Shown here: piece after piece, positions 20,834 to 23,445 of the stretch
Layout: every line of letters begins with the position of its first letter
How positions within the stretch are numbered: position 1 is the stretch's first letter
Assembly (NCBI GenBank): GCA_026770575.1
Contig: MU657207.1
Coordinates: 93,179-157,178, forward strand
DNA from: Pelagophyceae sp. CCMP2097
Taxonomy: Eukaryota; Sar; Pelagophyceae
Length of the DNA stretch: 64,000 nucleotides
Reading direction: 5' to 3'
Translations under genes and position numbers: made by a program
The notes under the pieces: model-generated
The model's input: the letters and a program-made list of their open reading frames with translations, nothing else
Told to the model about the DNA's origin: nothing
Database searches by the model: none

Positions 20834-23445
20834 ATGGCGCCGCGCGCCTTGCAGCACGCGGCGGCGCCGCGCGTCGCGCGCCGCACGCTGACCCGCGCGC
20901 TGAGCGGTAAGCCCCGTCGCCGGGCCGCGGCGCGCCGTTTGCGTCCCGGAGCGCGTCTAGTAGGCGAGCCTTCGGGGATCCGCGTCGTTTCGCAAATCTC
21001 GGTGGCGGGCGGCGTGCTGACAAAGTTCGAGCACGAGTCGGCTTCCACGGCAACGACGATGACGGCGGCAGTCTTCGTGCCCGCGGGTTTGGCGCGGCAG
21101 CCGGAGAAGCCGGCGCTGTACTGGCTCTCTGGGCTGACGTGCACGACGCAGAACTTTTGCGAAAAGTCGGGAGCCTTTCAACACGCGCACCAGCACAACA
21201 TAGCTTTAGTCATCCCGGACACTTCCCCCCGAGGCGCAAACGTCGAAGGCGAGGACGCCTCGTAAGAAAGCGGCGCAAACGGACCTTTTCAAGAGACGTT
21301 GCCGAGAGCATTGGTGCCGAAGCCGCGATATGACGGAGCGTTGGTGATTTCCGTAGCATTGGTTTCGAAGGCGCGCTCCTCTCAGGTACGACCTCGGCAC
21401 GGGCGCCGGGTGGTACGTCGACGCGACGACGGACAAGTGGAAGAAGAACTACAACATGATGTGAGTCATCCGAAACGGAGTGTGTCCCACGGAGTGTGTG
21501 TCCCACGGTCCGCGACACTTGTCGTAGGTCATACGTGGCAAAGGAGCTGACCTCGGTCGTCGAGGCGGAGTTTGGCATCTCGGCGATCCTGCGTTCCATC
21601 TCGGGCCACTCGATGGGCGGCCACGGCGCTCTGACCATGGCGCTGCGCGAGCCCGAGGCGTGGACTTCCGTTTCCGCCTTCGCCCCTGTCTGCAACCCAA
21701 CGGAGACGGCCTGGGGCCAGCGCGCGTTCCTGACGTACTTCGGCGACGTGGAAGCCGGCGTCGACCACGACGCCTCGCTGCTGATGCGGTCGCGAGGCCC
21801 GTTTCCGACTCTGGGCGACATTCTTATTGATCAAGGCACCGAAGACCAGTTCCTCACCGGAGATGAAAACGACCAGCTCAGGCCCGAGACGCTGGAAGCC
21901 GCTGCTCGCGCAGTGGGCCAGAAACTGCAGGTGCGCCGATTTCGCGGCCCGTTGGGTGTTTAAGCTTTTGTAGGTGCGGCGCCGGTCTGGCGACCACTCG
22001 TATTACTTCATCCAGAGTCATCTTGGCGAGCACGTCGAGTACCACGCGCGCGCGTTGCGCGCAAAGGCCAAGGCTCTGCGGGAACTCGATTGGCCGCCGC
22101 GCCGCACGGGCGGGCGCATGGCGCCGACGGACTCCAAGCAGTCTGCCACAGCCGGCAAACCTATTGTGTGCAAGGCCATGGTCGCCTGGAAACCCAAAGA
22201 GCCGCTGAAGTTGGAGATGGTCACGGTCGCGCCGCCAAAATTCGGCGAGGTCCGAGTCAAGGTCGTCGCCAACGCTTTATGCCACACGGACGTTTACACG
22301 TGGGAAGGCTCGGACGCGGAGGGGAAATTCCCGTGCATCTTGGGCCACGAGGCCGGCGCCATCGTCGAGTCGGTCGGTGAGGGGGTAACGTCGTTGCAAG
22401 TCGGCGACCACGTCGTTCCCTGTTACACTCCGCAGTGCGCCGAACCATCGTGCATCTTCTGCGCCTCGCCAAAGACCAACTTGTGCCCGGCCATCCGAGG
22501 CGAGTCTCTCCTCGACGCACCCGGAAGCAGCTTCCCTCGGTGACATTGACACTTTTGTAGGCACGCAAGGTTCCGGGGTCATGCCCGACGGGACCTCGCG
22601 ATTCTCGCTGAACGGCGAGCCCATCTTCCACTTTATGGGCTGCTCCACGTTTTCAGAGTACACCGTGCTGGCTGAAATCTCGTGCGCCAAGGTCAACGCT
22701 GCAGCTGCTCTCGAGAAGATGTGCCTCCTCGGCTGCGGCGTCTCGACGGGGTGGGGCGCGGTCTGGAACACTTGCAAAGTCGAAATCGGCAGCAGCGTCG
22801 CCGTCTTTGGCTGCGGCGCCGTCGGGCTCAGCGTGATCCAAGCAGCCAAGATGGCAGGGGCCACGAGGATCATAGCCGTGCGTCCCACCTCTTTTGTAGA
22901 GAGGGCCTTTCGAACGCTTGTTTTAGATCGACATGAACGCGGGCAAGTTCCAGCGCGCGCGGTCCATGGGGGCGACGGACTGCGTCGACTCGAGCGACGA
23001 TTCCGAGGGCCCGATGCAGAACCGCATCCTCCAAATGGAGCAGTGGGGTGTGGACTACACGTTCGACTGCACCGGTGAGCGCCTTTCATTCCACCCTCTT
23101 GGCCTCTTTCGTCACTTTGACGTAGGCAACGTGGACGTCATGCGCGCGGCGCTGGAATGCGCGCACCGCGGCTGGGGGGTCTCCTGCGTCGTCGGCGTCG
23201 CCGCCGCCGGCGCCGAGATCTCCACGCGACCCTTCCAGCTCGTCACGGGCCGCACCTGGAAGGGGACCGCGTTTGGGGGGTGGAAGTCTCGCACGGATGT
23301 TCCAAAGCTCGTGGAGCGGTACTTGGACGGCGACCTGAACATCGACCCGTATATCACGCACCAGTTCCAGGGCGTCGAGCAGACCAACGAGGCCTTTAAG
23401 GTCCTGAAAGGCGGTGACTGCCTCCGCGCGGTGGTCGTCTACTAG
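20834..23445 (+). CDS. ESD-ADH5: S-formylglutathione hydrolase / class III alcohol dehydrogenase fusion
   Basis: One continuous 738-residue reading frame over seven exons: 20834-21261, 21386-21460, 21528-21930, 21974-22499, 22561-22877, 22927-23074, 23126-23445. All phases agree. The N-terminal half is S-formylglutathione hydrolase: [18 protein letters not shown], nucleophile [10 protein letters not shown], Asp region DQGTEDQFL, His in DHSYYFI. Exon 4 (21974-22499) runs without a stop from DHSYYFI through a ~33-residue linker into the class III ADH domain. The ADH has [13 protein letters not shown] and [10 protein letters not shown] (catalytic zinc), a four-Cys structural-zinc loop, [12 protein letters not shown] with the class III Arg, and [10 protein letters not shown] (NAD-binding). 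Together they convert S-hydroxymethylglutathione to formate plus glutathione. An Arg/Ala-rich N-terminus ([17 protein letters not shown]) may target an organelle. The intron at 22500-22560 is GC-AG. Confidence 0.92.

Follow-up and report, generated by a model that had tools for sequence, protein, structure and literature searches.

Results

Gene structure of the locus

The window, the whole 64,000-nucleotide stretch of DNA analysed here, comes from Pelagophyceae sp. CCMP2097 (Pelagophyceae, Ochrophyta, Stramenopiles in the NCBI taxonomy) and carries one spliced gene on the + strand at 20834-23445, with a single ORF running from an ATG at 20834 to a stop codon at 23443-23445 (Table 1). Removal of the intron at 20907-20963 yields a product of 719 residues, identical to P0002, "hypothetical protein M885DRAFT_554897 [Pelagophyceae sp. 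CCMP2097]", while reading through it yields 739 codons including the stop (738 residues). Apart from the GC-AG intron listed in Table 1, the remaining six introns are of the GT-AG type.

Table 1 Features of the fused gene, in window coordinates.
Feature	Position	Strand	Support
Exon 1: ATG and Arg-rich N-terminal extension, possible organelle presequence	20834..20906	+	Matches P0002
Exon 2: N-terminal part of S-formylglutathione hydrolase (FGH)	20964..21261	+	Own-genome PF00756 match at C44:114216-114449
Exon 3: FGH	21386..21460	+	Spliced model
Exon 4: FGH catalytic core, nucleophile Ser177 (GHSMGG) and Asp255	21528..21930	+	Aligned to FGH structure 3fcx
Exon 5 (junction exon): FGH His291 (DHSYYF), FGH end (residue 311), linker 312-349	21974..22499	+	
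Exon 5, alcohol dehydrogenase (ADH) part: N-terminus, Cys386, His408, Cys438/443/446/454, Arg458	21974..22499	+	
In-frame ATG inside the linker (Met332), unlikely to start translation	22118..22120	+	
GC-AG intron	22500..22560	+	Spliced model
Exon 6: ADH, catalytic-zinc Cys517, start of nucleotide-binding fold	22561..22877	+	Spliced model
Exon 7: ADH nucleotide-binding fold	22927..23074	+	PF00107
Exon 8: ADH C-terminal part and stop TAG	23126..23445	+	Spliced model

Immediately upstream (20665-20833), a hydrophobic sequence, MAALFLGVTSVFRAP..., starts from the ATG at 20665 in a different frame. Splicing out a conjectural intron of 94 bases (20702-20795) would bring this exon into frame with the gene, and the exon might be an unannotated presequence exon or a product of chance. 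The resulting signal-peptide exon (20665-20701, joined to 20796) can be read in frame, but was rejected, its splice sites being guessed and without transcript support. The G+C content is 48% at window positions 1-2000 and 46001-48000, and 62-75% in the other 2-kb blocks.

Identity of the two halves and their junction

FGH hydrolyses S-formylglutathione, which the dehydrogenase makes with NAD+, to formate and glutathione. Profile searches with the window protein returned PF00756, PF08240 and PF00107, all above their cut-offs. Against TIGR02821, residues 32-311 reach 317.4 bits where 281.7 are required, and against TIGR02818 residues 350-719 reach 557.2 bits where 543.95 are required, so that both halves pass the equivalog cut-off of their family. 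The top solved structures by sequence score are an S-formylglutathione hydrolase (3fcx) for the N-terminal half and an S-(hydroxymethyl)glutathione dehydrogenase (7aas) for the C-terminal half.

The original prediction of an in-frame fusion is borne out by exon 21974-22499, which reads without a stop, in a single frame, from DHSYYFI across the linker to the beginning of the ADH. The linker is present as predicted, and its length has to be corrected from about 33 residues to the 38 lying between the two family matches (residues 311 and 350). Among the first 60 fused proteins listed, the distance from DHSY to the Cys at the ADH start ranges from 47 to 68 residues, and the sequence is variable. 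AlphaFold modelling of the whole chain from a 65-row alignment gave a mean pLDDT of 86.1 and a pTM of 0.79, with values below 50 only at residues 1-25 and 327-338 and a further 52 residues at 50-70. The model is consistent with two tethered domains that fold independently.

The ATG at 22118 had also been proposed as the start of a separate ADH, which would be made in addition to the fusion. This codon is in frame, has a G at +4 (GGCGGGCGCATGGCG) and lies 18 residues before the ADH family match, and a near relative, P0228 (outside the best 120 whole-protein matches), carries a similar MAPT motif in its linker. A Met nevertheless occupies the column of Met332 in just 2 of the 120 listed fused proteins, the window protein included (best 120 of 1027). 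Moreover, eight ATGs, seven of them in frame, precede it in the coding sequence, so that scanning ribosomes are unlikely to reach it. We therefore consider a free ADH from this start very improbable and do not retain the proposal.

Conservation of catalytic and zinc-binding residues

Alignment of the best 120 of 1027 whole-protein matches, the window protein included, revealed that Ser177, Asp255 and His291 of the FGH half are invariant (120/120). These residues align with the corresponding residues of 3fcx, and we take them to be the Ser-Asp-His catalytic triad of FGH. In the ADH half, His408, Cys517 and Arg458 are likewise invariant in all 120 of these listed fused proteins (window protein included; best 120 of 1027), and Cys386 is present in 119 of the 120, with one gap. 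Cys386, His408 and Cys517 are presumably the ligands of the catalytic zinc, and Arg458 presumably corresponds to class III Arg115 in the human numbering. The presumed structural-zinc residues Cys438, Cys443, Cys446 and Cys454 are invariant across the 65-row alignment.

At the structural zinc, the first two Cys are spaced C-x4-C in 117 of the 120 listed fused proteins (best 120 of 1027), three falling outside the pattern, and C-x2-C in both aligned structures, 7aas and 4dl9. The same C-x4-C is found in 84 of the 95 listed ADH-only relatives (x2 in four, x5 in one and six outside the pattern); being common to separate ADH relatives, it is not a trait of the fusion.

The claim that both halves keep their catalytic residues thus stands, the residues checked being conserved in 119-120 of the 120 listed fused proteins. 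Against a fusion in which one domain is catalytic and the other structural speak this conservation in both domains and the scores of both halves above the equivalog cut-offs, and we judge it very improbable. The bifunctional reading is the best one, given a conserved in-frame fusion with intact catalytic residues.

Distribution of the fusion among homologues

The whole-protein search, in which the length window shuts out most single-domain relatives, returned 1027 proteins at E <= 0.001. PF00756, PF08240 and PF00107 occur together in all of the best 120 of these. Among the 346 homologues listed from the whole-protein and half-protein searches combined, 147 match both halves, 95 the ADH half only and 104 the FGH half only. 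The original prediction had looked to relatives for support, and there the fusion is conserved, with FGH first in all 147. The absence of reversed proteins (0/147) is biased towards the order of the query, which the whole-fusion search ranks highest and which the half searches, excluding long proteins, do not offset, and is no evidence that reversed fusions are uncommon.

The named sources of the best 120 include the pelagophyte Chrysophaeum taylorii, the silicoflagellate Octactis speculum and Triparma, the diatoms Seminavis, Ditylum, Mayamaea, Eucampia, Epithemia and Nitzschia, and the gregarine apicomplexan Porospora cf. gigantea. The labels Bigna1 and PRCOL among the listed fused proteins presumably stand for Bigelowiella and Prasinoderma. 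The window protein aligns with diatom fusions (Seminavis, Mayamaea, Epithemia, Amphora and Ditylum) at 94-98% coverage and 58-61% identity. Mayamaea and Amphora carry separate ADH proteins beside the fusion, which is thus not obligatory for function.

A diverged second fusion in CCMP2097

Searches of the CCMP2097 genome revealed a second, diverged fusion on another contig (G000:C1:611849-632589; hereafter the C1 copy). P0020, a 695-residue ORF that comes from an MMETSP transcript and is labelled complete, maps to this interval at 695/695 residues, in 19 exact pieces separated by 18 gaps of 51 to 2971 bases, and the hydrolase-dehydrogenase junction lies inside one uninterrupted piece (P0020 residues 153-329). 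From this exact match we infer that the MMETSP organism is this species or one very near it. No transcript of the window copy turned up, its record P0002 coming from ncbi and nr only, so that the RNA support for the fusion in this organism is that of its C1 paralogue. The C1 copy scores just below the TIGR02818 cut-off (535.1 against 543.95 bits).

The PF00756 profile gave four matches in the genome, all at the window locus and on C1. Direct searches, run exon by exon on the 638-contig assembly with the best candidates scored, a procedure that may miss a gene, gave seven matches for the FGH half, none outside these two loci, and no match above 35% identity outside them for the ADH half. The ADH-half matches on contigs C18 and C14 (28-35% identity) are as expected for other zinc dehydrogenases; the PF08240 profile also matches C31, C7 and C16, where the direct ADH-half search reports nothing. 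The two fusions may accordingly be the sole form of the pathway in CCMP2097, to judge from these searches.

In trees of both halves the C1 copy stands beside Chrysophaeum (98/54 and 99/87) and the window copy in a different group of eight rows (100/99 and 98/94). The two copies are not sisters, and their duplication therefore seems to have preceded the divergence of CCMP2097 and Chrysophaeum. The C1 copy (loci L013, L014, L015 and L048) occupies about 20.7 kb and the window copy 2.6 kb; introns have expanded markedly in one of the pair. Within L013, where part of the C1 copy lies, there are 38 tandem-repeat rows, some of them overlapping.

An annotation or assembly artefact, by which a lost stop codon or a prediction error merged two neighbouring genes, is extremely improbable: part of the linker (MAPTDSKQ...) does resemble an ordinary ADH N-terminus, and the abstract of PMC3143110 attributes about a third of program-identified fusions in the most recent Tetrahymena annotation to artefacts, a common class of error, but the same fusion recurs in many independent assemblies and transcript collections, a complete transcript ORF covers the second locus, and the own-genome searches found no separate FGH to replace the fused one. 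As far as sequence comparison goes, the conserved fusion refutes such an artefact in kind. Chance is excluded as the source of the fusion by the match of both NCBIfam families to a single protein.

Origin of the fusion

Trees were built from hand-chosen rows, 80 for the ADH half (40 of the 147 fused proteins, 33 of the 95 ADH-only proteins and, as outgroup, 7 of 10 bacterial loci) and 75 for the FGH half (40 of the 147 fused and 35 of the 104 FGH-only proteins). Fused and separate rows interleave in both, and the fused rows do not form one clade. Changes between the fused and the separate state number 14 in the ADH tree and 11 in the FGH tree; the starred branches force at least nine and at least four of them, respectively, with many deep forks left open. 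These counts are not taken as evidence of repeated fusion, since some of the rows treated as separate come from truncated genes: P0228 of the FGH tree retains the linker, and P0123 of the ADH tree has no start Met. P0213, an ADH-only protein outside the tree, begins inside the end of an FGH.

A fused protein and a separate ADH form a pair in the ADH tree in Mayamaea (P0092 and P0168; 97/94) and in Amphora (P0059 and P0179; 98/92). Such pairs suggest that one copy lost its FGH half after a recent duplication, or that gene conversion took place.

To look for a bacterial origin, genome contigs were scanned with a pair of short peptide patterns taken from the ADH, yielding 24 loci, some with fewer than 700 bases upstream. 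Re-searching the ten best (L024-L033) with the whole fusion found FGH in frame with ADH in none; what looks like FGH in L026 is no more than a weak extension, and it meets a stop before the ADH. The other 14 loci hold ADHs of 22-25% identity only. A bacterial origin thus has no support in the ten best loci of this two-pattern scan, although bacterial fusions may exist. No relative was found in viral contigs, and none of the 49 phage records with a match covers 80% of the query.

One of the bacterial loci, L032 (3001-4318, from a Verrucomicrobiaceae MAG record), contains a class III ADH whose coding sequence is spread over three frames and has an insert; its identity to the algal ADH reaches 62.5%. 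The contig might be an intron-bearing eukaryotic contaminant.

N-terminal extensions and predicted compartments

The window copy begins with an Arg-rich extension of 29 residues that lacks a hydrophobic core, and the C1 copy begins almost directly with the enzyme. In 108 fused proteins with a complete-looking start, the extra N-terminal sequence is shorter than 15 residues in 66 and longer in 42. AFAP-like motifs following a signal-peptide-like start mark plastid import in such algae. A hydrophobic stretch followed by an AFAP-like motif was found in 9 of the 108, against a mean of 2.4 after shuffling of the extensions; the pattern was set after viewing the same N-termini, and P0007, if not others among the nine, is unconvincing. 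The excess is suggestive only, and suggests that some fused homologues are plastid-targeted. Examples with a signal-peptide-like start and then an AFAP-like motif are P0003, P0058, P0084, P0094, P0277, P0278 and P0280. The diatom Seminavis has one copy with the motif (P0058) and one without (P0029).

A wider reading would make the FGH-ADH fusion old and widespread in algae and some other protists and existing in compartment-specific versions, with a signal-peptide-like start and plastid-type motif, with an Arg-rich presequence or with neither. The whole pathway of CCMP2097 would then run on two fusions, the C1 copy probably cytosolic and the window copy probably organellar. We put this forward tentatively, as a possibility that is on balance doubtful.

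Discussion

Relation to known fusions

PMC3143110, with reference to Stover et al. 2005 (Mol Biol Evol 22:1539-1542), describes in diatoms an SFGH-FALDH fusion with SFGH first. The same enzymes in the same order were therefore in print for diatoms, and neither the architecture nor its order, reversed relative to the pathway, is new. Among the entries listed by our literature searches, no other description of an FGH-ADH fusion was apparent beyond this article and its citation of Stover et al. The window protein shares with the diatom fusion, as reported there, both enzymes, with FGH N-terminal and class III ADH C-terminal. It differs in its pelagophyte host, in carrying a pair of diverged fusions and, so far as the own-genome searches show, no FGH outside them, and in the Arg-rich extension of the window copy. 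FSF1 of Tetrahymena, which PMC3143110 reads as an independent FALDH-SFGH fusion, also joins the two enzymes in one protein, but with ADH first; the window protein, with FGH first, is thus not of the Tetrahymena type as reported there.

Compared with separate class III ADHs (human chi-chi ADH, 1m6h; 7aas), the window protein is homologous over its full C-terminal half, but is fused and has C-x4-C in place of the C-x2-C of 7aas and 4dl9. Homology to the separate FGH 3fcx extends over the whole hydrolase, with the triad residues aligned; 3fcx, however, is unfused and ends about where the linker of the window protein starts. By homology and domain order, the window gene is a pelagophyte member of the diatom-type FGH-ADH fusion family. 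Possibly new are the wider spread over lineages and the differences in presequence, which hint at cytosolic and organellar versions.

Proposed function

The gene very probably encodes one two-domain enzyme for glutathione-dependent formaldehyde oxidation, converting S-hydroxymethylglutathione to formate and glutathione, a reading first proposed as plausible and now favoured by both equivalog scores, the intact catalytic residues and the conservation of the fusion. In the proposed pathway, formaldehyde would combine spontaneously with glutathione to form S-hydroxymethylglutathione, followed by its oxidation with NAD+ to S-formylglutathione by the C-terminal class III ADH. Finally, the N-terminal FGH would release formate and glutathione. 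The two domains would fold separately, with a short flexible linker between them, and may benefit kinetically from tethering in that the product of one is the substrate of the other. Channelling, as originally suggested, is conceivable. Both activities, a side activity as S-nitrosoglutathione reductase and the cell compartment are predicted.

The fused enzyme is found in lineages beyond the diatoms named in PMC3143110. It would offer a natural test of whether the tethering of two consecutive enzymes matters for removal of a toxic metabolite, and studies of formaldehyde or S-nitrosoglutathione in such algae would have to treat both activities as belonging to one protein.
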